This document shows positions 5-16,313 of a stretch of DNA of 23,202 nucleotides, one piece after another. Location: the IMG/VR virus record IMGVR_UViG_3300047357_000912, positions 1 through 23,202 of that record. The stretch is one strand, 5' to 3'. The DNA comes from a virus. Both the position numbers and the translations under genes were made by a program. The first letter of the stretch is position 1, and each line of letters opens with the position of its first letter. The notes beneath the pieces were generated by a model that worked only from the letters and a program-made list of their open reading frames with translations, made no database searches and was not told the DNA's origin.

Positions 5-29
5 CAAGTGCTTGGTATTCAATGAGTTA
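5..29 (+). repeat. Palindromic 25-nt unit, copy 1 (degenerate)
   Basis: The left arm CAAGTGCTTG and right arm CAATGAGTTA are separated by 5 nt, the layout of the units found further right. The right arm differs from the consensus CAACGACTTA at three positions. The window begins in the cgcg just before it, so a GC spacer and a partner unit may lie to the left. It sits just upstream of the promoter of the gene at 95. Confidence 0.6.
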
Positions 30-59: not shown

Positions 60-94
60 TTGTGTTAATTGAAAAAGTGCCTTAGTATGTAGTT
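60..94 (+). promoter_or_regulatory. Early-type leaderless promoter for the gene at 95
   Basis: The -35 is TTGTGT at 60-65, the spacer is 17 bp, the -10 is TAGTAT at 83-88, and 6 nt follow before the ATG. A start point 7 nt after the -10 falls on the A of the start codon. A T-rich stretch precedes the -35, as at 1045. Confidence 0.75.
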
Positions 95-832: not shown

Positions 833-960
833 ATAAATGGACAAAAGAAAAAGTAACAAATACATTCGATAATAATTTATCAATAACACTTCGGGAGCTT
901 TCTCAGCTCTCGGGGTGGTCAGTTACAGAGTTGAAAGAAGTTCTCCTAAGTGATTGGTAG
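829..960 (+). CDS. Small protein (43 aa) overlapping the GP88-like gene
   Basis: The ATG at 829 overlaps the TGA of the preceding gene (ATGA), a typical translational coupling arrangement. The product is 43 residues. Its last two thirds, SITLRELSQLSGWSVTELKE, reads like a short helix-turn-helix, as in small DNA-binding proteins, but the fragment is too short to assign. The 3' end of the gene runs into the first palindromic repeat unit (947-971), so the last residues LSDW are encoded by the repeat's left arm. No homologue is recognised. Reality is supported by the coupled start and a sensible composition. Confidence 0.6.
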   Translation: MNKWTKEKVTNTFDNNLSITLRELSQLSGWSVTELKEVLLSDW

Positions 961-1013
961 TCAACGACTTAGGCGGGCCGGGCCGCCGTAAGTGCTTGGC
1001 GCTCAACGACTTA
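947..1013 (+). repeat. 42-bp-period palindrome module A (two 25-nt units plus GC spacer)
   Basis: Unit 1 (947-971) has left arm TAAGTGATTG and right arm CAACGACTTA. The 17-nt spacer 972-988 contains GGCCGGGCC and can itself fold (GGCGG/CCGCC). Unit 2 (989-1013) has left arm TAAGTGCTTG and right arm CAACGACTTA. The right arms start exactly 42 bp apart (962 and 1004). The module lies between the end of the first + strand unit and the promoter for the gene at 1080. Confidence 0.9.
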
Positions 1014-1044
1014 CGACTATATGCGAAATTAATTCATTTTTTTC

Positions 1045-1079
1045 TTGTGTTAATTAGGTTTATGCCTTAGTTTATATAT
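1045..1079 (+). promoter_or_regulatory. Early-type leaderless promoter for the gene at 1080
   Basis: The -35 is TTGTGT at 1045-1050, then 17 bp, the -10 is TAGTTT at 1068-1073, then ATATAT and the ATG. The stretch TGCCTTAGT at the -10 is shared with the promoters at 60 and 2075. Confidence 0.8.
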
Positions 1080-1325
1080 ATGACATTAAAAGACAAAACA
1101 AACGGAAAAGAACTAACATTTGAACTCTTGCCAAACGGCATCCTAAAAGCATATGATTATCATTGTGGTTGGGATGTTTCATTCAAGAAAGTGGGCAACA
1201 CTTGGCAGGGTCATATGAATGGAGGATATGTCGGTTACAAAGGCATACTTGCACAACTTAACTTACTTCAACAAAATTTAGACGAAGTAAAACAATTAAT
1301 GAAAATGGTTGAAGAAATCGTTTAA
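1080..1325 (+). CDS. Hypothetical phage protein, 81 aa
   Basis: An 81-residue protein of unknown function. The N-terminal half looks beta-rich (short alternating hydrophobic segments, a YDYHCGWDVSF stretch, NTWQGHMNGGYVGYKG). The C-terminal third (about 58-80) is amphipathic helical with LLQQNLDEVKQLMKMVEEI and could be a short coiled coil. The start is fixed by the promoter with its 6-nt gap and there is no Shine-Dalgarno sequence, consistent with leaderless translation. It is the first gene of a four-gene unit (1080, 1337, 1537, 1733). I do not recognise a family. Confidence 0.8.
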   Translation: MTLKDKTNGKELTFELLPNGILKAYDYHCGWDVSFKKVGNTWQGHMNGGYVGYKGILAQLNLLQQNLDEVKQLMKMVEEIV

Positions 1326-1336
1326 CACATAAAGAT

Positions 1337-1522
1337 ATGATAATACAAATTGAAGACTACCGAGGAAATGATTTATGCTCTTTCTCTATTGATAATATTA
1401 GAGGATACGACATTAAAGATTTTAAAGATTGCAATTATGCCGACATGGACGAAGACGAGAATGGCGACCTATACATCAGAGTACAATTAGAAAAAGAAGA
1501 CTTGACACTATACTCAAACTAA
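1337..1522 (+). CDS. Hypothetical acidic protein, 61 aa
   Basis: A 61-residue acidic protein, second in the unit, 11 nt after the previous stop. It is rich in Asp and Glu (for example DMDEDENGDLYIRVQLEKEDL) and looks like a small beta-strand protein. The leader ends in AAAGATATG, the same as for the next gene, which supports this start. Small acidic proteins in early phage regions are often host-takeover factors, but nothing here specifies a target. No family recognised. Confidence 0.7.
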   Translation: MIIQIEDYRGNDLCSFSIDNIRGYDIKDFKDCNYADMDEDENGDLYIRVQLEKEDLTLYSN

Positions 1523-1536
1523 ACTATATTAAAGAT

Positions 1537-1728
1537 ATGATATTAACAGAACCAACACAAATTGAAGCATTCAGATATAAAACATTACTTCGGGGGCTAA
1601 GGCTTGAGCTTAACGGCTTGAAGATGTCAAGGGGTAGAAGTTGCTACTCTATCGTCAAGGAAGAGTTTGGCCTAAAAGGTAGCAAGCAAAAAGTTTACGA
1701 TCAATTCAAACAATTAATAGAAGGATAA
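1537..1728 (+). CDS. Small conserved-looking phage protein, 63 aa
   Basis: A 63-residue basic protein. The pattern LLRGLRLELNGLKMSRGRS followed by CYSIVKEEFGLKGSKQKVYDQF resembles a short protein I have seen in many phages, of unknown function; the arginine-rich loop and helical tail suggest nucleic acid binding, which is inference. The ATG at 1537 is preferred over an upstream alternative start at 1429 because 1429 would overlap the previous gene by over 90 nt, while 1537 has the leader ACTAAACTATATTAAA followed by GATATG. That leader recurs before the gene at 2528. Confidence 0.75.
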   Translation: MILTEPTQIEAFRYKTLLRGLRLELNGLKMSRGRSCYSIVKEEFGLKGSKQKVYDQFKQLIEG

Positions 1729-1732
1729 GACT

Positions 1733-1963
1733 ATGGAAGGATATAACGGATGGAAGAATTGGGCGACTTGGAATGTGGCTCTGTGGCTAGGTAATGACGA
1801 AGGGCTTTATAAAATAGCTCGTCGGTTCGTTCATTATAAAGATCTAGCCAATGAGCTAGAGAATTGTGGCGCAACAGAAACGCCCGACGGGGCGAGTTAT
1901 AAGGATGAGGATTTAGACACCTATGCCCTTGACGAGTGGATGATGGATGAAATGGAAGAATAA
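1733..1963 (+). CDS. Conserved phage protein with WKNWATWNVALW motif (DUF7249-like)
   Basis: A 76-residue acidic protein. The N-terminal motif YNGWKNWATWNVALWLGND (4-22) is widespread in phage, plasmid and cyanobacterial small proteins of unknown function; the DUF number is from memory and should be checked. The tail is very acidic (DEDLDTYALDEWMMDEMEE). The Shine-Dalgarno AAGGA at 1721-1725 lies inside the end of the preceding gene, giving a well-placed start 4 nt after that gene's stop, so the two are translationally linked. Last gene of its unit; a palindrome module starts 5 nt downstream of its stop. Confidence 0.85.
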   Translation: MEGYNGWKNWATWNVALWLGNDEGLYKIARRFVHYKDLANELENCGATETPDGASYKDEDLDTYALDEWMMDEMEE

Positions 1964-1968
1964 TTCCA

Positions 1969-2035
1969 TAACTCGCTTATAGTCAACGACTTAGGCGGGC
2001 CGGGCCGGCGCAAGTGCCTGACACTCAACGACTTA
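1969..2035 (+). repeat. 42-bp-period palindrome module B
   Basis: Unit 1 (1969-1993) has a degenerate left arm TAACTCGCTT and the exact right arm CAACGACTTA. The spacer 1994-2010 is 17 nt and contains GGCCGGGCC. Unit 2 (2011-2035) has left arm CAAGTGCCTG and the exact right arm. The right arms start at 1984 and 2026, again 42 bp apart. Confidence 0.9.
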
Positions 2036-2074
2036 CGACAATATTAAAATTAATTCATCTTTTTTTCTTTTTAT

Positions 2075-2109
2075 TTGACACGAAGGCTTTTATGCCTTAG
2101 TTTGTATAT
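2075..2109 (+). promoter_or_regulatory. Early-type leaderless promoter for the gene at 2110
   Basis: The -35 is a consensus TTGACA at 2075-2080, then 17 bp, the -10 is TAGTTT at 2098-2103, then GTATAT and the ATG. It shares ATGCCTTAGTTT with the promoter at 1045. Confidence 0.85.
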
Positions 2110-2499
2110 ATGATTAATTACGACATACCAAACAAACCTCTCTCACAATTTCAACCACAAAGCTTTGATTTTTCTGATCTTGACTTTCAACCACATCGTG
2201 GTGCTGATGATGCAGTTCAAGCAAGACTTGATTTTGATAATGGGCTTTCTATTTCTGTTGTCGCAGGTGAAGACGGCAGGGGAGGATTGTATGGCAGTGT
2301 GGAAGAAGATTTGTACGAATTTGCAATCTTTAACGAAAATGGAATGATTCCTCTTTCCCCTTCCGATGATGTTGTCGGTTGGCAATCTCCCGCCCAAGTA
2401 TCTATCCTAATGGCAAAAGCTCAAGTCGAGGGAAGCGTTTGGGTTGACGAACTTAAAGAAGACAAAACAGAATTTAGAAGAGATTTAGGTCTTGACTAA
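2110..2499 (+). CDS. Hypothetical phage protein, 129 aa
   Basis: A 129-residue acidic protein. The core RLDFDNGLSISVVAGEDGRGGLYGSVEEDLYEFAIF followed by a DDVVGWQSPAQVSILMAKAQ helix resembles a family of small phage proteins with an 'F/DNGYxxSVxxG ... YExAxxxxxG ... DDVxG' pattern, known to me only as hypothetical. The N-terminal 30 residues are low-complexity (PLSQFQPQSFDFSDLDFQPH). The start is fixed by the promoter with a 6-nt gap. First gene of a four-gene unit (2110, 2528, 2785, 2870). Function unknown. Confidence 0.8.
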   Translation: MINYDIPNKPLSQFQPQSFDFSDLDFQPHRGADDAVQARLDFDNGLSISVVAGEDGRGGLYGSVEEDLYEFAIFNENGMIPLSPSDDVVGWQSPAQVSILMAKAQVEGSVWVDELKEDKTEFRRDLGLD

Positions 2500-2527
2500 T
2501 TATAATAACTAAACTATATTAAACATT

Positions 2528-2788
2528 ATGGAATTAACACAAGAAGAAAGAATCGCCCTTATTAAAAACGCAGTCCTTGCAAGTCAAGGTGCATCCAACG
2601 TATTGGTCAACAACTTCGTTGAGGAAGTCAAAACCGAGGAAGTTATCGGAGAAAACGGATTATTTAATGTCGCCAACCATGACATCGAAGACGAGAAGCA
2701 ATTCCTCAATTCTGATGTTGCCGAAGACATTGACGAAGAAGATCAAGACATCGGAGTGTCTGACGAAATGAAAGGAGTCTACAAATGA
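2528..2788 (+). CDS. Hypothetical acidic protein, 86 aa
   Basis: An 86-residue strongly acidic protein with an N-terminal helix (MELTQEERIALIKNAVLASQG) and a C-terminal half dominated by Glu and Asp (DVAEDIDEEDQDIGVSDE). The composition is that of a DNA mimic or a flexible adaptor, but no family is recognised. The leader ACTAAACTATATTAAA is shared with the gene at 1537. The stop overlaps the start of a 26-codon ORF. Confidence 0.75.
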   Translation: MELTQEERIALIKNAVLASQGASNVLVNNFVEEVKTEEVIGENGLFNVANHDIEDEKQFLNSDVAEDIDEEDQDIGVSDEMKGVYK

Positions 2789-2865
2789 GCTACGACATAC
2801 TTTTATTCTTGCCTTGGGTCGTTGTATTTTATATGATGCACAAAGATATCATATCAAACAACTAA
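2785..2865 (+). CDS. Membrane microprotein, 26 aa
   Basis: The ATG at 2785 overlaps the TGA of the previous gene. A good Shine-Dalgarno (AAAGGAG, 2770-2776) lies 8 nt upstream, one of the few clear ones in this region. The 26-residue product has a single hydrophobic segment (ILLFLPWVVVFYMM, about 5-18) followed by a short polar tail, so it is a predicted single-pass membrane peptide. The next gene starts 4 nt after its stop. The coupling and ribosome binding site support it despite its length. Function unknown; small membrane peptides of phages can act on the host envelope or ion gradient. Confidence 0.6.
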   Translation: MSYDILLFLPWVVVFYMMHKDIISNN

Positions 2866-2869
2866 TTTA

Positions 2870-3097
2870 ATGAGTTCTTTTTTTATTGCTACAACTATTG
2901 GAGGGGGCAGTCAATTTGCCATGATGGAAGTGCCAACAACCGAAAAGCCTAGAAAGGGCGAATATATGCTTAGTGCCGACTGCGTAACTAAAAACTTAGA
3001 AAGTGGGCGCTTTAAAGATATGACCAAACAAGCACAGGGAGCATTTGGAAAACTATATGTTTTATTAGAAGATTTAGAGGCGCTTGATAAATACTAA
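2870..3097 (+). CDS. Hypothetical protein, 75 aa
   Basis: A 75-residue protein beginning SSFFIATTIGGGSQFAMMEVP, with a helical, charged C-terminus (GKLYVLLEDLEALDKY). No family is recognised. The start lies 4 nt after the stop of the microprotein; no strong ribosome binding site is seen, so it may depend on coupling. Last gene of its unit; repeat module C follows about 50 nt downstream. Confidence 0.7.
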   Translation: MSSFFIATTIGGGSQFAMMEVPTTEKPRKGEYMLSADCVTKNLESGRFKDMTKQAQGAFGKLYVLLEDLEALDKY

Positions 3098-3146
3098 ATC
3101 GATAAATAGTAAATCTACAAATAGCAAATAGTCATTTGCAATCCCC

Positions 3147-3250
3147 CAACCCGTTGATAATCAACGACTTACGATAATTTACCTAAGTGCTTGGTATTCA
3201 ACGACTTACGCGGGCCCGGCCGCCGTAACCTGTTGATTATCAACGACTTA
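3147..3250 (+). repeat. Palindrome module C (three 25-nt units)
   Basis: Units lie at 3147-3171 (left arm CAACCCGTTG), 3184-3208 (left arm TAAGTGCTTG) and 3226-3250 (left arm TAACCTGTTG), all with the exact right arm CAACGACTTA. The second and third units flank a 17-nt spacer (3209-3225) with GGCCCGGCC and keep the 42-bp period; the first and second are joined by a 12-nt AT-rich linker without the GC motif. Confidence 0.9.
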
Positions 3251-3265
3251 CGGTATTATTCTGCC

Positions 3266-3367
3266 ATGTTAGCTATAAGCCAGATTAATGCACAAGGAGA
3301 AAGGATTACTAGACCCATATTTAAAACCATCACTATTATGTCAATATTCATTATTTTGATTTTTTGA
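3266..3367 (+). CDS. Possible membrane microprotein, 33 aa
   Basis: A 34-codon ORF just after module C. The product has a polar N-terminal half (MLAISQINAQGERITRP) and a hydrophobic C-terminal half (FKTITIMSIFIILIF) that would span a membrane. TATTAT at 3254-3259 is followed by 6 nt and then the ATG, the same gap as the other leaderless promoters, but the matching -35 at 17 bp (TGTTGA) is poor and lies inside the repeat. It could be a real leaderless gene or chance. Confidence 0.35.
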   Translation: MLAISQINAQGERITRPIFKTITIMSIFIILIF

Positions 3368-3409
3368 TTCTCGTTATTATTAAAATTTTTTCTCTCTCTG
3401 TATAGTTGG

Positions 3410-3673
3410 TCATTTTACGAAGATTTGATTGATGTATTTTGTGGCTTGCTTGTTGCTTCCAAGCGTTACCTTAGATTGAAGGTTTTCGGCAATCTTGTTT
3501 ATCTTTGTTCTTGCTTCGCCCTTATCCTCGGCTTGTACTACAATTACATTATTGGTCATTACTGAGTTAATGAATGTATTGGTATTCGTGTTAAAAAGGG
3601 GAAGTTTTGAATCATCATTGCTGAAGATGTGGACATTTCCTGTGAAGGTTCTTTCTTTGTTATTCTTTATCAT
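3410..3673 (-). CDS. Hypothetical protein, 87 aa
   Basis: An 87-residue protein, Asn and Thr rich, with no recognised family. The C-terminal half (VIVVQAEDKGEARTKINKIAENLQSK) could be a beta strand followed by a helix. The start is set by a promoter with the 6-nt gap on the - strand. It is the last gene of the - strand row and converges on the + strand genes. Function unknown. Confidence 0.75.
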   Translation of the reverse strand: MIKNNKERTFTGNVHIFSNDDSKLPLFNTNTNTFINSVMTNNVIVVQAEDKGEARTKINKIAENLQSKVTLGSNKQATKYINQIFVK

Positions 3674-3708
3674 ATATACAATTTAAGGGTAAAAAGGGTA
3701 AAAGTCAA
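3674..3708 (-). promoter_or_regulatory. Leaderless promoter for the - strand gene starting at 3673
   Basis: On the - strand the -35 is TTGACT (3708-3703), then 17 bp, the -10 is TAAATT (3685-3680), then GTATAT and the ATG. AAATAGC precedes the -35, as at 4266. Confidence 0.8.
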
Positions 3709-3748
3709 GCTATTTAATGATTATTTTTCATTTATTTTACTTATTGCA

Positions 3749-3815
3749 TAAGTCGCTGTATACCAACGACTTACGAGGGCCTGGCCGCCGTAACCTGTTG
3801 ACTAACAACGACTTA
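3749..3815 (+). repeat. 42-bp-period palindrome module D
   Basis: Unit 1 (3749-3773) has left arm TAAGTCGCTG and the exact right arm. The 17-nt spacer 3774-3790 contains GGCCTGGCC. Unit 2 (3791-3815) has left arm TAACCTGTTG and the exact right arm. The right arms start at 3764 and 3806. The neighbouring genes are on the - strand, but the module keeps its + strand orientation. Confidence 0.9.
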
Positions 3816-3827
3816 GGGGGCTTAGTA

Positions 3828-4022
3828 TTAGTCTACTATGTTGAGGGGGGTAGGTAGTGGTGTATGGGCTATATAAGCCTCTAGCTCGTTAGCCTCTGCC
3901 TGTGCTATCCTGTCAAGGTCTGCCTGTGCAGCTATGCATTGCATCATAGCCGAGCCTGAGCCATTATTAGCTGCTTCGAGGTTATTGTCGATAATTTCTT
4001 GTAGTCTTTGTTTTTCGTTCAT
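3828..4022 (-). CDS. Hypothetical helical protein, 64 aa
   Basis: A 64-residue protein that is almost wholly helical (QRLQEIIDNNLEAANNG, then IAAQADLDRIAQAEANELEAYI), ending in a Pro-rich tail. It could form a small helical hairpin. No family is recognised. A leaderless promoter with a consensus TTGACA fixes the start. The + strand ORF in the same place has no promoter and is a shadow. Confidence 0.8.
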   Translation of the reverse strand: MNEKQRLQEIIDNNLEAANNGSGSAMMQCIAAQADLDRIAQAEANELEAYIAHTPLPTPLNIVD

Positions 4023-4057
4023 ATATATAAGGTAGTCTATTGGATGGGTGGTGTCAA
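4023..4057 (-). promoter_or_regulatory. Leaderless promoter for the - strand gene starting at 4022
   Basis: On the - strand TTGACA (4057-4052), 17 bp, TACCTT (4034-4029), 6 nt, ATG. The first eight spacer bases CCACCCAT nearly match those of the promoter at 5068 (CCACGCAT), suggesting the two were copied from each other. Confidence 0.85.
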
Positions 4058-4060
4058 GCG

Positions 4061-4231
4061 TTATCGTGATATAATCACTAATCTTTCGCCCGTTCTTTGC
4101 TTGTGTTGTCTTTGTAGTTGGCTAGCTATTTGCATAGCCTTAGCTGAATTTGTAGCGTTATCTATTAGCTTGCCGAACATAGTAATGTTGAGCCATTTGG
4201 TGAAATTCTTGTTTAATGTAATTGTTATCAT
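4061..4231 (-). CDS. Small basic protein, 56 aa
   Basis: A 57-codon ORF revealed by its promoter, too short for usual cut-offs. The protein (MITITLNKNFTKWLNITMFG at the start) is basic and helical, with KAMQIASQLQRQHKQRTGER near the C-terminus, which could bind nucleic acid or form a coiled coil. No family recognised. The stop lies only 4 nt before the -35 of the next - strand promoter. A longer ORF on the opposite strand here (4008-4244) is judged a shadow because it lacks a promoter and has an implausible cysteine-rich sequence. Confidence 0.75.
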   Translation of the reverse strand: MITITLNKNFTKWLNITMFGKLIDNATNSAKAMQIASQLQRQHKQRTGERLVIISR

Positions 4232-4266
4232 ATATATAACATAGGGGCATATGTGCGTAATGTCAA
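4232..4266 (-). promoter_or_regulatory. Leaderless promoter for the - strand gene starting at 4231
   Basis: On the - strand TTGACA (4266-4261), 17 bp, TATGTT (4243-4238), 6 nt (ATATAT), ATG. AAATAGC precedes the -35. Confidence 0.85.
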
Positions 4267-4306
4267 GCTATTTGGCGATTTATTTTCATTTATTTTGTTT
4301 ATTACA

Positions 4307-4405
4307 TAAGTCCTTGTATATCAACGGCTTACGCCGGCCGGGCCGCCGTAAGTGCCTGATAGTCAACGACTTACGGCAGAATTCTTACTGATAATCAACG
4401 ACTTA
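4307..4405 (+). repeat. Palindrome module E (three 25-nt units)
   Basis: Units lie at 4307-4331 (left arm TAAGTCCTTG, right arm CAACGGCTTA with one change), 4349-4373 (left arm TAAGTGCCTG, exact right arm) and 4381-4405 (left arm ATTCTTACTG, exact right arm). The first pair flanks a 17-nt spacer (4332-4348) with GGCCGGGCC and has the 42-bp period; the third follows after 7 nt. Confidence 0.9.
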
Positions 4406-4423
4406 GGGCGATAGCATTGTGCA

Positions 4424-4474
4424 CAAAAAAGCCCACATAGTAGGCTATTGAATAGGTCAACTATGCGAGGGCTT
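4424..4474 (-). terminator. Intrinsic terminator for the - strand gene at 4473-4781
   Basis: Read on the - strand, AAGCCC (4474-4469) pairs with GGGCTT (4434-4429), and CATAG pairs with CTATG inside it. The right arm is followed by a run of T (4428-4424 and part of the arm). The stem overlaps the stop codon of the gene. Confidence 0.7.
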
Positions 4475-4781
4475 AGAACACTAGAGGATCGGGCAACTTA
4501 TTAGGCGAAGCGAACCAATCGGATGGGTCAATTCCTTGACCATTTAGTACGGGCTCAAATTTGAATTGGCAAACTCCGGCATTTGCTATACCGTTAACTC
4601 GTTCGCGTGTGGTAGGGGTGTTCCATCCTGCAAGCGACCACCTGACCAAGCCGTCAGGGTCACGCTTCACAATAGCGTTACCATGTAGCCAAACGGTCTG
4701 ACCGTCCGTGCGTGTATTGCCCACCTTTAAAGATGTGCCTTGATTGAATGCTTGCTTAATTTGTTCTGTTACTTTTCTCAT
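4473..4781 (-). CDS. Conserved small phage protein with AGWNTPTTRERVNGI motif
   Basis: A 102-residue protein. The segments SLKVGNTRTDGQTVWLHGNAIV (17-38) and SLAGWNTPTTRERVNGI (49-65) match a widespread small phage protein of unknown function in which a 'LHGN.I' strand is followed by 'LAGW.T.TTRERLN'. It looks like a compact beta-rich fold. No leaderless promoter is found in front; the start lies 63 nt after the stop of the - strand gene at 4845, so it is likely the second gene of that unit. A terminator overlaps its stop. Confidence 0.85.
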   Translation of the reverse strand: MRKVTEQIKQAFNQGTSLKVGNTRTDGQTVWLHGNAIVKRDPDGLVRWSLAGWNTPTTRERVNGIANAGVCQFKFEPVLNGQGIDPSDWFASPNKLPDPLVF

Positions 4782-4844
4782 GTTATTTATTTGTGTAGGC
4801 TAGACCGATTATTATTGAGGTTATTATATAAATTATTAGCATAT

Positions 4845-5033
4845 TTATTTGCCTAGATATTGTTTTACTTGTTTGATTGTCGCAGGAATTAAGTCAGCAA
4901 AAAAAACTTCTGACTCAATGTCTTGCTTGTGGTGTTTCACATAGGCTATTGCTAGGGCTTGATTTGCTCGCACTACACGAACGGCTTTATTGTTTGACTG
5001 ACTGTGATAGATTGCTCCGTTATTAATTTTCAT
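4845..5033 (-). CDS. Hypothetical basic protein, 62 aa
   Basis: A 62-residue basic protein (NNGAIYHSQSNNKAVRVVRA, then ALAIAYVKHHKQ, then LIPATIKQVKQYLGK). The order strand-strand-helix-helix is only a guess from hydrophobicity. No family recognised. A leaderless promoter with TTGACA fixes the start. It probably shares its transcript with the conserved gene at 4473-4781. Confidence 0.8.
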   Translation of the reverse strand: MKINNGAIYHSQSNNKAVRVVRANQALAIAYVKHHKQDIESEVFFADLIPATIKQVKQYLGK

Positions 5034-5068
5034 ATATACAAGGTAATTGATTAAATGCGTGGTGTCAA
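5034..5068 (-). promoter_or_regulatory. Leaderless promoter for the - strand gene starting at 5033
   Basis: On the - strand TTGACA (5068-5063), 17 bp, TACCTT (5045-5040), GTATAT, ATG. The -35 lies 6 nt past the stop codon of the gene upstream (5074). Confidence 0.85.
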
Positions 5069-5073
5069 ACTAT

Positions 5074-5358
5074 TTAAGCTTTTTCTTTAAGGTAATTGTC
5101 AAGCCAATCGAACATATCATTCTCTACGAAGCTTTCGATTTCTTCGTTTGTTATGGTCAATTCAATAGGTTGGTCATTGTCGCCATATTGTTGTGCTGAC
5201 ATGACAACGGCATTGATTTGCTCTAAAGCATTTTCCTCAAAGTCAATGAGCCAATCCATGCTAATCTGAGCAATCACAGTACCCTCTCCATAGTAAAAAG
5301 TACCCTCAAAGGTGTCGTTGTCGTTTAAGTCTTCAAAGTCTTCTAGTATTAATTTCAT
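5074..5358 (-). CDS. Hypothetical acidic protein, 94 aa
   Basis: A 94-residue acidic protein. It starts with MKLILEDFEDLNDNDTFEGTF, continues with alternating strands (GTVIAQISMDWLIDFEENAL) and ends with a helical DMFDWLDNYLKEKA. Charge and size are like DNA-mimic or inhibitor proteins of phages, but no family is recognised. The start is fixed by its own leaderless promoter. Confidence 0.8.
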   Translation of the reverse strand: MKLILEDFEDLNDNDTFEGTFYYGEGTVIAQISMDWLIDFEENALEQINAVVMSAQQYGDNDQPIELTITNEEIESFVENDMFDWLDNYLKEKA

Positions 5359-5393
5359 ATATACAATGTAAGGTATTTTTTTACTTTAAGCAA
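5359..5393 (-). promoter_or_regulatory. Leaderless promoter for the - strand gene starting at 5358
   Basis: On the - strand TTGCTT (5393-5388), 17 bp, TACATT (5370-5365), GTATAT, ATG. ATAAAGT precedes the -35, as in the two promoters at 5755 and 6024, so these three form a subclass. Confidence 0.75.
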
Positions 5394-5406
5394 ACTTTAT
5401 TTTCAG

Positions 5407-5553
5407 TTATTTTATTGCTTGTTTAATCATTTCAAAACTCCACACATGCCCACCGGCACATTCCCAAAGGTCAAAGGACTCAGTCATGGGGCTTGCTTGG
5501 ATACGAACAAGGTTATTATCTTGAATGAATTTTTTTATTTCTTCTGTCATCAT
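5407..5553 (-). CDS. Small protein, 48 aa
   Basis: A 49-codon ORF, second in a unit with the gene at 5565-5720; its start lies 11 nt after that gene's stop. The leader AAAGAAAAAAAAT is purine-rich and could serve as the ribosome site; the start may be either of two adjacent ATG codons. The sequence (EEIKKFIQDNNLVRIQASPM, then FDLWECAGGHVWSFEMIKQA) looks like a compact folded domain. The downstream promoter begins 14 nt beyond its stop. No family recognised. Confidence 0.6.
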   Translation of the reverse strand: MMTEEIKKFIQDNNLVRIQASPMTESFDLWECAGGHVWSFEMIKQAIK

Positions 5554-5564
5554 ATTTTTTTTCT

Positions 5565-5720
5565 TTAGTTATTTTCTAGTAAAAGAAAAGAGTTTGTAAT
5601 TTTAATTCCATGGCTTTGGGCTTCCTTAAAAGAATCAAAAGAGCCGGAGTAATTATTTCCGATGTATAAGTCGAAAACGACACTTGACCAAGTAGAGAGA
5701 GATTTAATCTTAATTTCCAT
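5565..5720 (-). CDS. Small protein, 51 aa
   Basis: A 52-codon ORF found from its promoter. The product is MEIKIKSLSTWSSVVFDLYI at the N-terminus followed by GNNYSGSFDSFKEAQSHGIK, suggesting a beta hairpin and a helix. No family recognised. The promoter with the 6-nt gap gives strong support for this start and for leaderless translation. First gene of a two-gene unit with the 48-aa ORF. Confidence 0.75.
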   Translation of the reverse strand: MEIKIKSLSTWSSVVFDLYIGNNYSGSFDSFKEAQSHGIKITNSFLLLENN

Positions 5721-5755
5721 ATATACAATGTAAGGGCAAAGCCGGCAAGACGCAA
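5721..5755 (-). promoter_or_regulatory. Leaderless promoter for the - strand gene starting at 5720
   Basis: On the - strand TTGCGT (5755-5750), 17 bp, TACATT (5732-5727), GTATAT, ATG. The -35 lies 3 nt past the stop of the gene upstream. Confidence 0.85.
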
Positions 5756-5758
5756 ACT

Positions 5759-5989
5759 TTATTTTGATTTATTTTGTTTTATTTCTTGAAAGGCTTTTCT
5801 TGCTTTTTGTACTGCGTTTAATGCGTCAAGAATTGTTATGCCTTGCGTGATTGTACCTTGCCAATCGGATGAATTTGATTCTCGTGCCAAGTGGTTCAAG
5901 TTGCCTTCTGCTTCAGCCAATGCCAAGCCAAGGTCGAGATCCAAATCTAATTCGTGTTTTACTTCTTCTAGTGTCTTATTCTTTATCAT
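5759..5989 (-). CDS. Hypothetical helical protein, 76 aa
   Basis: A 76-residue helical protein (TLEEVKHELDLDLDLGLALAEAEGNLNHLA, then a helix ending in NAVQKARKAFQEIKQ). An upstream in-frame start at 6007 would give six more residues (MGYIVY), but the leaderless promoter places the start point at the ATG at 5989, so the shorter form is chosen. The middle SDWQGTITQGITILDAL may be a turn between two helices. No family recognised. It is the first (most upstream) gene of the - strand row. Confidence 0.8.
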   Translation of the reverse strand: MIKNKTLEEVKHELDLDLDLGLALAEAEGNLNHLARESNSSDWQGTITQGITILDALNAVQKARKAFQEIKQNKSK

Positions 5990-6024
5990 ATATACAATGT
6001 AACCCATAAAATGGCTAAACGCAA
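5990..6024 (-). promoter_or_regulatory. Leaderless promoter for the - strand gene starting at 5989
   Basis: On the - strand TTGCGT (6024-6019), 17 bp, TACATT (6001-5996), GTATAT, ATG. The upstream ATAAAGT is shared with the promoter at 5755. Confidence 0.85.
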
Positions 6025-6370
6025 ACTTTATTTCAATTACCTTTCGATTATTTTATTGCACAAATTTACTGCCGGGGTGGGTAGTTAATTGAATTTTCAT
6101 AAGTCGTTGAGTACCAGCAAGTTGCGGGGGGTGGTGTTTTTCATTCTCATTTTTAATAATTTACATTTTCAAATAATAGCAAGTACAAAAAAATCCGAAG
6201 GGTATAAAAACCAAAAAACCAAATATAAAAAACCCATAATTAATCGAAACAAAGAAAAAACCCCAAAAAAATGCAAATCTAAAAAAAATCGGGGAGCCTA
6301 TTTTGTAAAAGGGTAAATATAAAAAAACAGTTAATTCTTTAGCGCCGAAATAGAAATAACAGGTAAATTC
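6025..6370. other. Gene-free boundary between accessory region and virion genes
   Basis: No convincing gene is seen here. It holds one degenerate palindrome unit (6100-6124) and a stretch from 6187 to 6288 with seven A-runs of five to eight bases, mostly separated by C- or G-containing breaks, which may be intrinsically curved. A candidate late promoter motif follows at 6371. An alternative-start ORF at 6089-6316 exists but has Lys/Asn-rich low-complexity sequence typical of A-rich noncoding DNA. Confidence 0.6.
6100..6124 (+). repeat. Palindromic 25-nt unit, isolated degenerate copy
   Basis: The left arm TAAGTCGTTG is the exact complement of the conserved right arm; after 5 nt the right arm is CAGCAAGTTG, which differs from CAACGACTTA at several positions but is followed by the usual CGG. 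It aligns in the + orientation with the unit at 3749. It is the rightmost copy seen. Confidence 0.6.
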
Positions 6371-10703: not shown

Positions 10704-11043
10704 GCAAACGATATTTTGTACAGAATGTGGAGCAAAAAACGAGTACTCTGGCGCTAAGCCAAAGTTTTGTTCTTCCTGCGGAACTCCTATGGAGAAAACT
10801 GCATCAAGCGGCGTCAAGCCACAAGCCACCAAGAAGCCAATGGTTCGCAAGAGCGCCGGAAGCTTCAGAGAGCAAATGGAAGCCAGGAAGCAATCTAGAG
10901 GCTCCTTATCAGAGGACGAAACGGACATAGATCATGTTCCAAATATATCCTCATTAAGCTACGAGATAACTAAATCGGGCAATACCATTCATAACTTTAA
11001 AGATATTATTGATGCCGCCCAAAAAGAAGACACCAACAAGTAA
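10702..11043 (+). CDS. Zinc-ribbon protein upstream of the sigma factor
   Basis: A 113-residue protein with an N-terminal zinc ribbon: CTECGAKN (6-13) and CSSCGTPM, giving two CxxCG knuckles about 18 residues apart, a treble-clef-like pattern common in small regulators. The rest is polar, Lys/Ser rich and probably disordered, with a short C-terminal YEITKSGNTIHNFKDIIDAA. The ATG at 10702 is chosen over an alternative start at 10672 because the -10 TATAAT lies between them. Its end overlaps the sigma gene by 32 nt, so the two are coupled; it may be a partner of RNA polymerase or of the sigma factor, which is inference. Confidence 0.8.
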   Translation: MQTIFCTECGAKNEYSGAKPKFCSSCGTPMEKTASSGVKPQATKKPMVRKSAGSFREQMEARKQSRGSLSEDETDIDHVPNISSLSYEITKSGNTIHNFKDIIDAAQKEDTNK

Positions 11044-11791
11044 GCCTGCAAAAGACGCTGAACTCAAGGAGCCTGTAGTTAAGGCAAGGTACGAAGACCT
11101 TAATGATGTAATAGATAAAGAACTGATCAAAAGAAAGAGGAATTGGTTTTTAAGCTCAGTAGCATGGATAGACTTTGACGACGTATCCCAAATTATACGG
11201 GCGCATATTGCTAATAAATGGCATCTGTGGGACCAGTCACGGCCAATAAAGCCCTGGCTTAATAAAATTATTGCAAATCAGATGAAAAATATCCTGCGTA
11301 ATCATTATAGCAATTACGCTCGCCCATGCTTAAACTGTCCGTTCAATAACGATGCAGACATGCAATTGTGCAGCTTCACTAAATCTGGACAACAAGACAG
11401 AACATGCCCGCTATATAAAAAATGGGACAAAACAAAAAAGCACGCATACAATGTAAAAATCACTTTATCGCTAGACAGTCATATTCATGAGATCGATGGA
11501 AACGTAGATAATCATCTTGACATGGATATAAATTCAGCTTCTGATAAATTAATCAAAGAATTAAAAAGCTGCCTAAACGAAAGGCAGTTTAAGGCTTTCG
11601 AATTACTTTACATACAGAACCTAACAGATCAAGAGGTTGCAGATCAAATGGGTTTCAAAAGCACAGAGTCAGGAAGAAAAGCGGGATACAAACAAATTAA
11701 AAATTTAAAGAAAACTTTAAAAGACAAAGCTGTTAAAATACTAACAAAGAAAGGTATAGCATTTCTAGGAGATGACAACGACATTATCTAA
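11012..11791 (+). CDS. Phage RNA polymerase sigma factor with Cys-rich insertion
   Basis: A 259-residue sigma factor-like protein. The region 2-like part (about 40-100) has the hydrophobic pattern AWIDFDDVSQIIRAHIANKW followed by RPIKPWLNKIIANQMKNILR, as in sigma region 2 helices. A cysteine cluster follows (Cys 106, 109, 120, 132: CLNCPF, LCSF, TCPLY), a zinc-site candidate. Region 4 (about 183-240) has LNERQFKAFELLYIQNLTDQ and EVADQMGFKSTESGRKAGYK, a helix-turn-helix. Large phages use such factors for late transcription, so it may read the GTGTA motif; that is inference. The start is the ATG at 11012, not the TTG at 11009. Confidence 0.85.
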   Translation: MPPKKKTPTSKPAKDAELKEPVVKARYEDLNDVIDKELIKRKRNWFLSSVAWIDFDDVSQIIRAHIANKWHLWDQSRPIKPWLNKIIANQMKNILRNHYSNYARPCLNCPFNNDADMQLCSFTKSGQQDRTCPLYKKWDKTKKHAYNVKITLSLDSHIHEIDGNVDNHLDMDINSASDKLIKELKSCLNERQFKAFELLYIQNLTDQEVADQMGFKSTESGRKAGYKQIKNLKKTLKDKAVKILTKKGIAFLGDDNDII

Positions 11792-13521: not shown

Positions 13522-14442
13522 ATGACTTGTGAATGTAAGGTATGTAATAAATCTTTCAAGAATGAAAGAGGCTTGCACTTGCACATTCCCAAGACGCATA
13601 AAATTCCTCTTGCTGAATATTATGTTAATATTTATCAGCGTCGGGATAAATTAACTAATGAATTATTAGAATTTAAAAATAAAGATGATTATTTTAATAT
13701 TGACTTTGTGTCGCAGGAGAACCTGCGTAAATGGGCTTTAGGTGCCGACAAGGAGGAAGTTAAGGAATATATATTAAAACGCCTTCAGCAGCGCGTTACG
13801 GGCAAGGAATTGGCATATGCTCCGTGTCACCTGGAACTTCTTCTTCATGACTTGCCATCAATGGATATGTATAAGTATTTTTTTGGTTCTTATTCGCAAG
13901 CATGCAATGATATAAAAATTAAACCATTATTAGATAAAAATATAATGAAAGGTTTTTTTGAAAGAAATATAGAATTAGATGATATTAACATACTGATAGA
14001 CACTCGTGAGCAGCAACCATTAAAGTTTAACAACTCCATGTCTATGAAATTGGATTTTGGCGATTACGCTGTTGGCGCGCCGCATTACGACTATACTTAT
14101 GTTGACAGGAAAAGCGAATCAGACTTCAAGGGCACAATGACTACAGGGTTTAAGAGATTCACTAGAGAGCTTGAAAGGGCGCAAGAATTTGATGCATATA
14201 TTTTTATAGTAGTCGAAAGTTCGATAGAAGCGATTATAAAAAACAATATGTACGGACCTAGGCAATCAAACCTTCCATACATCTGGCACAACATGAGATT
14301 ACTCATGCATAAATTCGCTAAAAAATGTCAATTTATTTTTACTGGAGGAAGGAAGCAATCAGAAGAAATGATACCCAAGCTTTTGGTATATGGTAAAAAA
14401 TTATGGGGAACGGACTTACAATACTTTATAGATAAACAATGA
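13522..14442 (+). CDS. C2H2 zinc finger - ERCC4 family nuclease
   Basis: A 306-residue protein. An N-terminal C2H2 finger has Cys5, Cys8, His21 and His26. Residues about 156-290 form an ERCC4 (XPF-like) nuclease core: IDTREQQPLKF (159-169), LDFGDYAVG (177-185) and the signature DRKSESD (195-201, D-R-K-x3-D), followed by GFKRFTRELERA. All expected acidic and basic active-site residues are present. The enzyme should cut branched or flap DNA at junctions. Its stop overlaps the terminase start, so it may clear replication or recombination branches before packaging; this pairing is inference. The region 30-150 is of unknown fold. Confidence 0.9.
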   Translation: MTCECKVCNKSFKNERGLHLHIPKTHKIPLAEYYVNIYQRRDKLTNELLEFKNKDDYFNIDFVSQENLRKWALGADKEEVKEYILKRLQQRVTGKELAYAPCHLELLLHDLPSMDMYKYFFGSYSQACNDIKIKPLLDKNIMKGFFERNIELDDINILIDTREQQPLKFNNSMSMKLDFGDYAVGAPHYDYTYVDRKSESDFKGTMTTGFKRFTRELERAQEFDAYIFIVVESSIEAIIKNNMYGPRQSNLPYIWHNMRLLMHKFAKKCQFIFTGGRKQSEEMIPKLLVYGKKLWGTDLQYFIDKQ

Positions 14443-16313
14443 CTTGGCAAGAAGGCAAACTAGCAAACAACGACAAGGAGATTAACGTCAACGATGAAAT
14501 GTTGAAGATTAAAGGGTATCTGGACGAACCAGACGCAAAGATTTTGCTTCATAATTTCCTTAGGGATAATGTAACTTTTACAACCAACTTAATAGCTGGA
14601 GTGGATCTTTTTCCTTTTCAACATTTAGCCATCAAATCGATGCTGGAAACAGATTACTTTCTTGGTATATGGAGTCGAGGAATGTCTAAGTCTTTTAGTA
14701 CTGCTATATATGCTTTCCTGGATGCGATATTTAATCAGGGAGTGCAGATAGGTATTATGGCCGCCACGTTCAGGCAGTCGAAGATGATATTTGAAAAGAT
14801 TGAGGATATAGCAAGAAAACCAGAAGCTGCATTTTTAGCGCAATGCATAACAAAGAAATCAAAGAAAAACGACCAGTGGACCCTAGAGATTGGAGAATCT
14901 AAAATTATTGCTTTACCTTTGGGCGATGGTTCGAAGTTGCGTGGTTTTAGGTTTCATAGAATTATTATTGATGAGTTTCTTTTGATGCCAGAGCATATTT
15001 ACAATGAGGTTATTTTGCCGTTCCTTAGTGTTGTTCAAAACCCTACCGAAAGAGAGAAGGTCAGGAAGCTAGAAGATCAAATGATAGCTAAGGGCAAAAT
15101 GAAGGAAGAGGATAGATACCAATGGCCGAACAATAAATTGATAGCATTATCCTCTGCTAGTTATAAGTTTGAATATTTATACAAGGTGTACGAGACATTT
15201 GAGAATCTAATCCTAGACGGAACACATCCAGGCTCCATAGATACTTCAAAAAGAGTTATAATGCATTTTAGTTATGATGTGGCTCCTGAGGCTCTTTACG
15301 ATCAAAACTTGATCAATCAATCAAAGCAAACAATGAGTCAATCTCAGTTTGACCGAGAGTTTAATGCTATATTTACAGACGACAGCTCAGGGTTCTTTAA
15401 GACGTCCACAATGGCTGCATGTACTGTACCTGATGGAGAGACTCCCTGCATGGAGCTTGCTGGAGATAGAGATTGTAAATATTTGTTAGCATTTGACCCA
15501 AGTTGGGCAGAGAGTGAAAGCTCTGACGATTTCGCTATGCAATTATTTAAATTAAATGATAATACAAAATCTGGTACTTTAATTCATAGTTATGCTGTTC
15601 CTGGTTTAAAGATGCAGGATCATATTAATTACTTTCATTACTTATTGACTCATTTTAATATTGTTGCTATTGTTGGAGACTATGGTGGAGGTGTACAATT
15701 TTTGCAGGGAGCTAATGCTAGTGAGCAATTTAATAAAAGCAATATAAATATACAGGAAATCTCTGCTGACCTTGATAATACGGAGCATTACCAGGAAGGG
15801 CTCAGGGAGCTGAAAATGCAATACAATTTAAAAGATAGAAAAATATGTATACTAAGGAAAGCCAATTCTGACTGGATTCGAAAGTCTAATGAACTTTTGC
15901 AGGCTAACTTAGACCACAAAAGAATATGGTTTGGTTCTAGGCCATTGGATGATAATTATCATATGCAATTAAAGAAAAAAGTACCTATAGACGATTTAAC
16001 ATTTGTACCCAATCAGAAAGAGTTTTTGAAAAGTAGCGGCGGAGCAAAGCTAATAGATTTCTTGGATCATCAATGGGACATGGTTAACTATACTAAAAAT
16101 CAATGTGCATTGATACAGGTAACTTCTACGCCCCAAGGAACTCAAACTTTTGGATTGCCGTCAAACCTAAGAAGGCAAAGCGGGCCAAGTAAAACAAGGA
16201 AGGATTCTTATTCAGCTTTGGTTCTTGGGAATTGGATGATCAAGACGTATTACGACATGATAAATGCCAAGAAGGCGCATGTTGATTCAACGTTTATTCC
16301 GATCATGGTTTAA
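14439..16313 (+). CDS. Terminase large subunit
   Basis: A 624-residue terminase, near the length of T4 gp17. The ATPase has an adenine-side segment LFPFQHLAIKSML (57-69), Walker A WSRGMSKSF (78-86), Walker B RIIIDEF (174-180) and a coupling motif LIALSSASY (234-242). The RNase H-like nuclease has the first acidic residue in LLAFDPSW (349-356), the second in IVGDYGGG (411-418) and a late LIDFLDHQWDM in the C-terminal part. It packages DNA into the prohead through the portal, whose gene follows. It overlaps the nuclease gene by 4 nt. Confidence 0.95.
   Translation: MTWQEGKLANNDKEINVNDEMLKIKGYLDEPDAKILLHNFLRDNVTFTTNLIAGVDLFPFQHLAIKSMLETDYFLGIWSRGMSKSFSTAIYAFLDAIFNQGVQIGIMAATFRQSKMIFEKIEDIARKPEAAFLAQCITKKSKKNDQWTLEIGESKIIALPLGDGSKLRGFRFHRIIIDEFLLMPEHIYNEVILPFLSVVQNPTEREKVRKLEDQMIAKGKMKEEDRYQWPNNKLIALSSASYKFEYLYKVYETFENLILDGTHPGSIDTSKRVIMHFSYDVAPEALYDQNLINQSKQTMSQSQFDREFNAIFTDDSSGFFKTSTMAACTVPDGETPCMELAGDRDCKYLLAFDPSWAESESSDDFAMQLFKLNDNTKSGTLIHSYAVPGLKMQDHINYFHYLLTHFNIVAIVGDYGGGVQFLQGANASEQFNKSNINIQEISADLDNTEHYQEGLRELKMQYNLKDRKICILRKANSDWIRKSNELLQANLDHKRIWFGSRPLDDNYHMQLKKKVPIDDLTFVPNQKEFLKSSGGAKLIDFLDHQWDMVNYTKNQCALIQVTSTPQGTQTFGLPSNLRRQSGPSKTRKDSYSALVLGNWMIKTYYDMINAKKAHVDSTFIPIMV

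Follow-up and report, generated by a model that had tools for sequence, protein, structure and literature searches.

A repeated module of paired palindromes beside promoters and cassette borders in an uncultivated tailed phage: a candidate element of control and exchange

Results

The viral record IMGVR_UViG_3300047357_000912 (positions 1 to 23,202, hereafter the window) is a 23.2-kb piece of an uncultivated tailed phage. Its left 6.1 kb form an accessory region of small genes, which point rightward to about 3.1 kb and leftward beyond. This region carries a repeated module, in which two 25-bp palindromic units flank a G+C-rich spacer. On balance, we lean towards reading this module as a promoter-linked control element of the accessory (hyperplastic) region that would also serve as a site of homologous recombination between gene cassettes.

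In the window a module measures 67 bp (two 25-bp units and a 17-bp spacer); five such modules are present, plus single units. The half-site CAACGACTTA occurs there 12 times in exact form, against 0.03 expected from a first-order Markov model of the window (300 runs, maximum 1). Relatives were gathered by IMG/VR scans for contigs that share the terminase or carry the repeat, and the repeat recurs in dozens of related viral contigs. From about 580 units (near-symmetric units being counted on both strands) and from the 42-bp modules placed in one orientation, the unit consensus reads TAANNNNTTG-N5-CAACGACTTA. Both arms keep TAA, TTG, CAA and TTA almost without variation, whereas CGAC is strongly conserved in the right arm only (87-94%). 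The first-pass annotation, made from the letters of the window, had described drifting left arms and a conserved right arm, and right arms are indeed the better conserved across the relatives, many of which also contain perfect palindromes.

Promoters beside the modules were searched with a generic sigma-70 pattern (TTG, a gap of 16-18 nt, TANNNT and, following it, an open ATG frame). Such a promoter lies on one side of 178 of the 332 modules, on both sides of 10 and on neither side of 144, compared with 3% per side at random positions. The distance from the module to the -35 box has two peaks, at 30-31 and at 39-40 nt, which differ by about one helical turn; its distribution is alike on the strong-arm and on the weak-arm side, for either polarity. 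A one-sided promoter at a preferred distance points to a regulatory role of the modules. Bacteroidetes-type promoters were considered and dropped, the spacing fitting ordinary sigma-70 TTGACA-N17-TANNNT.

The promoter distances in the window are 30, 31, 39, 40 and 40 nt. On the plus strand, TTGTGT-N17-TAGTAT (60..88) lies 30 nt past the unit at 5, has its ATG at 95 and keeps the same form in relatives; TTGTGT-N17-TAGTTT (1045..1073) lies 31 nt past module 1, with ATG 1080, and TTGACA-N17-TAGTTT (2075..2103) lies 39 nt past module 2, with ATG 2110. On the minus strand, TTGACT-N17-TAAATT (3680..3708) is found 40 nt from module 4, the gene starting at 3673, and TTGACA-N17-TATGTT (4238..4266) 40 nt from module 5. 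At 60-95, 1045-1080, 2075-2110 and 3708-3673, the -10 box (TAGTTTGTATATATG and similar) ends about 6-7 nt before the ATG, so that the mRNAs of these genes probably have little or no leader. Downstream of the module 5 promoter lies a short unlisted gene of less than 60 aa (about 4070-4231, minus strand) with the start MITITLNKNFTKW; a protein of a relative opens with MITIRQNPNFTKF.

We then consider how the arms are likely to be read. Among 128 non-redundant 42-bp modules, the rate of complementarity between paired arm positions does not exceed that expected of independent columns, and most shuffles attain it. Changes in the left arm are unanswered on the right arm, and covariation is confined to inner spacer pairs, where it rests on few lineages. 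A hairpin or cruciform role of the 25-nt units was ruled out by this lack of arm covariation, which points instead, most simply, to a duplex protein-binding site made of one strong and one weaker half. Modules are not followed by a T-tract; the window holds 6 terminator-like sites against 4.7 expected, none of which is a module. In the 48- and 50-bp classes, shuffled spacers fold as well as the real ones, and a comparison of the window with Rfam gave no match at the gathering score.

The strong arms share one orientation within a contig for 160 of the 166 modules of clear polarity, while the promoter direction is unrelated to it (40 with and 41 against the module). Accordingly oriented examples are seen in the window itself, where all five modules are on the plus strand and genes face both ways.

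Gene order changes around the modules. The small gene units that the first-pass annotation saw between the copies are borne out, since modules delimit small gene blocks, and its suggestion that gene content between modules might differ among relatives is answered by block order changing at modules. Comparison of the window with its close relative G002 gives match blocks 1-1013 and 947-2065, which overlap in the module; G002 has an additional cassette between two module copies, and block 5426-6061 is placed elsewhere relative to 3741-5412. Among the 42-bp modules, 103 pairs share the left flank only, 90 the right flank only and 13 both; judging from these counts, left and right flanks combine freely. 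In a gene-order test with modules masked, gene families rebuilt, ATG starts only and same-strand neighbours, neighbours were kept in other genomes in 26% of cases across a module, in 52% where a gap of 40 nt or more held no module and in 73% when genes were tightly packed (26% versus 52%, p=0.0009 by family pair).

In 23 recombinant trios, the switch falls at varying places along the module, its first and last bases included, as homologous recombination, rather than a dif-like crossover, would predict. An averaged curve had hinted at a step at the border between the spacer and the second unit, but the separate trios are scattered and a fixed-point site-specific exchange was abandoned. The dif-like or one-armed recombinase site put forward in the first-pass annotation is thus not supported. 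A tyrosine recombinase (Phage_integrase family) is missing from the 27 phage records examined, of which many are fragments, a host Xer protein being possible. RecA/UvsX-like proteins are encoded in three relatives (G012, G020 and G021) and a RuvB-like protein in another (G003).

The spacer and the geometry of the module vary with lineage. The spacers are G+C-rich, averaging 66-91% in those spacing classes that are well populated, compared with about 35-47% G+C for the genomes. In the window, GGCCNGGCC occurs inside all five 42-bp pairs (947/989, 1969/2011, 3184/3226, 3749/3791 and 4307/4349) and nowhere else; it had been announced as invariant, which stands for these five pairs but not for the relatives, where it is the spacer of one lineage and others have spacers of the GCGCGCC type, of the CCTCCGAGG type, or a stem-loop such as GACCCC-TTC-GGGGTC. 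Likewise, the right arms of a pair are exactly 42 bp apart in the window, while the unit spacing in relatives is 40-42, 48, 50, 53 or 58 bp depending on the lineage, and constant or nearly so inside one contig. Therefore, 42 bp is no universal geometry, and a helical constraint at that distance was ruled out. The homogeneity of modules within a genome suggests concerted evolution.

In the two large relatives, the repeats are confined to one region rather than scattered genome-wide: every unit of a 137-kb contig lies within 13 kb, and every unit of a 200-kb contig within 9 kb, in the accessory region. Terminase relatives without the motif are fragments, and give no proof of its absence. Paired half-sites in bacterial genomes are mostly unrelated tandem repeats; real modules occur on two contigs from metagenome-assembled genomes (MAGs), L178 and L192, which are labelled Halobacteriovorax MAG and Flavobacteriaceae MAG and carry class A modules. 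These could possibly be hints to the host or misbinned phage contigs. A BLAST of phages and plasmids with single sites gave weak matches, often intergenic; the six inspected had no common context and were not used as evidence.

Among the individual copies in the window, exact right arms on the plus strand start at 962, 1004, 1984, 2026, 3162, 3199, 3241, 3764, 3806, 4364 and 4396, the eleven that had been counted before; one more exact half-site stands on the minus strand at 6100. Module 1 (947..1013, plus strand; spacer GGCGGGCCGGGCCGCCG) consists of two units spaced by 42 bp, whose exact right arms start at 962 and 1004, and module 2 (1969..2035, plus; spacer GGCGGGCCGGGCCGGCG) has them at 1984 and 2026. 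Module 3 (3184..3250, plus; spacer CGCGGGCCCGGCCGCCG; exact right arms at 3199 and 3241) lies between convergent gene ends. Modules 4 (3749..3815, plus; spacer CGAGGGCCTGGCCGCCG; exact right arms at 3764 and 3806) and 5 (4307..4373, plus; spacer CGCCGGCCGGGCCGCCG; right arms CAACGGCTTA and CAACGACTTA) each stand before a leftward promoter.

The unit CAAGTGCTTG-GTATT-CAATGAGTTA (5..29, plus) has two right-arm mismatches and aligns with a module of G002; because that homologous module is complete, the unit probably represents the latter half of a module that the window edge truncates. A single unit, CAACCCGTTG-ATAAT-CAACGACTTA, is found at 3147..3171 (plus), the next unit following 37 bp on. The positions of the fourteen copies listed by the first-pass annotation were checked and the repeats are there, with some corrections. 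The copy at 4381 is an isolated half-site only (CAACGACTTA, 4396..4405, plus), its left arm being mismatched at 7 of 10 positions, and the copy at 6100 (6100..6124, minus) is a single unit of opposite polarity, with the left arm TAAGTCGTTG exact on the plus strand and a degenerate right arm. Neither the 37-bp interval 3147-3184 nor the 32-bp interval 4349-4381 makes a module. Near the isolated half-site at 4396, a terminator-like hairpin (AGCCTACTATGTGGGCT, then TTTTTG) lies at 4430-4446 on the minus strand, and a similar sequence adjoins modules in relatives.

A full-text search for the 10-mer CAACGACTTA led to the Stenotrophomonas phage DLP6 (KU682439), which contains 24 exact half-sites against 0.26 expected, 21 of them on the plus strand. 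They are mostly direct pairs about 25 bp apart ahead of gene clusters, span about 110 kb, one gene cluster being inverted, and are followed by terminator hairpins. The proximal site is 11-12, 21-22 or 32 nt from the -35 box, that is, multiples of the helical repeat, the 12-nt value using a partner site with one mismatch and three DLP6 promoters being missed by the pattern. The DLP6 authors list 25 'phage promoters' detected by PHIRE, 22 of which are in groups of two before gene clusters (PMC5349666). The PHIRE motif is very probably the CAACGACTTA half-site.

Half-site pairs at 25-27 bp also occur in contigs that share genes with DLP6. A third group of contigs shows direct repeats at 21-22 bp and also carries a conserved gene set of 552 aa and 698 aa, which we take as putative terminase and portal genes from their size and order only. 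In L122:5704-5758, L118:4213-4266 and L094:6571-6625, 3-4 direct half-sites at 20-22 bp occupy one intergenic place each, and in two of these contigs an ArdC-like anti-restriction gene adjoins the cluster. DLP6 and the window family share almost no genes (only PhoH, ribonucleotide reductase, tail-fibre-like proteins and one weak short match), and the reader of the half-site may therefore be a host protein. A DNA-binding gene common to both was considered as the reader, but there is none among the shared genes; nor was a phage-encoded IHF/HU found in 16 records.

As for the carrier, the terminase of the window (14439-16313) has 22-27% identity to terminases of isolated phages. On the question of a T4-type carrier, this distance is joined by the lack of PHROG matches for the portal, protease-region and capsid proteins of the window. 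The window also encodes PhoH, a weakly recognisable sigma-70-like factor (11009-11791) and a protein with a zinc finger and an ERCC4-type nuclease (13522-14442); the latter two are candidates for late transcription and recombination functions. In the accessory region, 4473-4781 and 95-832 have Pfam matches to Kyano_Gp96 (PF23790, cyanophages) and GP88 (PF17338).

Discussion

We propose that a sequence-specific DNA-binding protein, supplied by the phage or by the host, would recognise the half-site CAACGACTTA and bind both palindromic units that flank the spacer. The bound protein could then activate or repress a sigma-70-type promoter placed at a preferred distance, mostly 30-31 or 39-40 bp. 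In mycobacteriophages, sites called stoperators are bound by a phage repressor that silences transcription. Modules sit at the borders of small transcription units, in the order gene end, module, next promoter, so that a similar sequence of 60-90 bp recurs at many cassette boundaries. Homologous recombination among these copies, carried out by phage or host functions within one genome or between co-infecting relatives, would add, delete and reorder cassettes, and may also homogenise the modules inside one genome.

Several observations weigh against this proposal. No recognised promoter accompanies 144 of the 332 modules, and no binding protein for the module was identified. The cassettes share ancestry, so that neither the promoter distances nor the synteny counts are wholly independent observations; operon boundaries in general may also account for part of the synteny contrast. 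BLAST breakpoints are enriched at modules versus random positions, but they are equally common at module-free gene junctions, and were discarded as proof of recombination at modules. A purely regulatory element would not need a uniform polarity, and in the relative G015 (L219-L220, 3085-15028) this polarity, although uniform, is opposite to the gene order conserved in the window, G001, G002 and G013.

Other explanations must be confronted with the same data. The half-site could bind the host IHF or another DNABII protein that bends DNA upstream of phage promoters. The IHF consensus is WATCAANNNNTTR, and CAANNNNTTA after a T fits its core, these positions being invariant in both arms; the sites of DLP6 and of the 21-22 bp group read ATCAACGACTTA, a full fit, and finding no IHF/HU gene in the phages is what a host-supplied protein would predict. 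We nevertheless regard this explanation as improbable: CGAC falls in the degenerate part of the consensus (four positions), yet it is highly conserved in right arms and does not differ between unrelated phages; in the window family, where the fit is only partial, the A of WAT varies; and at distances of 21-27 bp two IHF dimers would not have room side by side. One would also think of dif, pdif or attC-like sites, whose arms are bound by a host or phage tyrosine recombinase that exchanges strands in the 5-nt centre and so moves cassettes. Their 10-5-10 layout with unequal arms, the cassettes between sites and the uniform polarity recall the modules, but exchange points spread over the whole module weaken this idea, and with no Phage_integrase protein in the 27 records (host Xer aside) and a preferred promoter spacing it becomes very unlikely. 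That the modules belong instead to replication, packaging or segregation, like iterons or polar sites that a protein moving behind the replication fork would read, would explain their common polarity within contigs with promoters either way, as well as the many copies in one region. However, a preferred promoter spacing in two unrelated groups, and DLP6 sites spread before gene clusters over about 110 kb, one cluster being inverted, make this very doubtful in our eyes.

Could the modules act as RNA? Bidirectional terminators or 3'-end hairpins of mRNAs between transcription units would be expected past the end of a gene and ahead of the next promoter, which is where the modules are. Several lineages have a palindromic spacer, in one of them a strong stem with a TTCG loop, and DLP6 has terminator hairpins after its sites. 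Against such a role stand the lack of arm covariation, of a T-tract and of an Rfam match, the count of terminator-like sites in the window and the poor folding of the 48- and 50-bp spacer classes, and we give it little credence. Selfish palindromic repeats (REP/MITE-like) that spread in the phage genome, and remain intergenic because in-gene insertions are lost, would have a spacing and a spacer family uniform within a genome and different between genomes, as observed. They would hardly account for preferred promoter distances on either side, for an array at a single shared location in two large genomes or for the same half-site beside promoters in unrelated phages. No module-linked transposase was noticed, although no search by name was made, and this origin appears very improbable.

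A broader proposal can be added to that of a promoter-linked module and recombination site, and it is a rather unlikely one, though still worth stating. A conserved host DNA-binding protein targeting ATCAACGACTTA might serve several unrelated phage groups for the control of early promoters, and in the window family this target would have been incorporated into the genome-polar paired module, which homologous recombination would employ as a general boundary of cassettes. If this were true, one element would couple host-dependent expression with modular gene exchange.

A parallel can be drawn with several known systems. The PeSL were reportedly described as mobile regulatory cassettes by Arbiol et al. 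in 2010 and Comeau et al. in 2014. The PeSL of T4-type phages are composite promoter-terminator motifs with a stem-loop, and are regarded as mobile regulatory cassettes (PMC4503421, PMC4177764). Like them, the modules are a repeated intergenic motif of a variable accessory region, linked to what may be early-type promoters, with gene blocks shuffled at the copies. The promoter link (one-sided for 178 of the 332 modules, where random positions give 3% per side) was judged as sigma-70-type and not by temporal class, and the shuffling is reflected in the lower retention of neighbours across modules than across module-free gaps (26% against 52%). Unlike PeSL, they consist of two 25-bp protein-type palindromes and a G+C-rich spacer with no built-in stem-loop terminator, since arms do not covary, no T-tract follows and spacer folding is not general, and their orientation follows the genome rather than the promoter. 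Our best reading is therefore that the element is PeSL-like in regulation and recombination without being itself a PeSL, and is a variant of phage mobile regulatory modules.

The predicted 'phage promoters' of DLP6 (PMC5349666) very probably share the half-site, usually paired and upstream of sigma-70-type promoters of gene clusters, but they are direct repeats about 25 bp apart, with neither palindromic units nor a G+C-rich spacer. In the haloarchaeal virus HGTV-1, a promoter-like box with an inverted repeat precedes many genes on one side of the genome, and a role in regulation and shuffling was proposed (PMC3950731); the likeness is drawn from the description, and the context is an archaeal TATA box. 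The SAS/ESAS repeats of cluster K mycobacteriophages, which occur only in the accessory half of the genome and contain imperfect inverted repeats (PMC3203893), also have one arm better conserved, but are attached to translation starts beside a 13-bp sequence, without doubled units or a G+C-rich spacer. The pdif modules of plasmids (Xer sites) are likewise short inverted-repeat sites between small gene cassettes, whereas the modules of the window family have no fixed exchange point, no recombinase gene found and a promoter spacing.

Sequence signals that order the shuffling of accessory regions have been described mainly for T4-type phages, and the module would represent a seemingly differently built system in an uncultivated phage group. 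Its signature is exact enough for cassette boundaries to be detected automatically, and because the same 12-mer lies upstream of promoters in the cultured and unrelated phage DLP6, a search for the binding protein can be put to the test directly.

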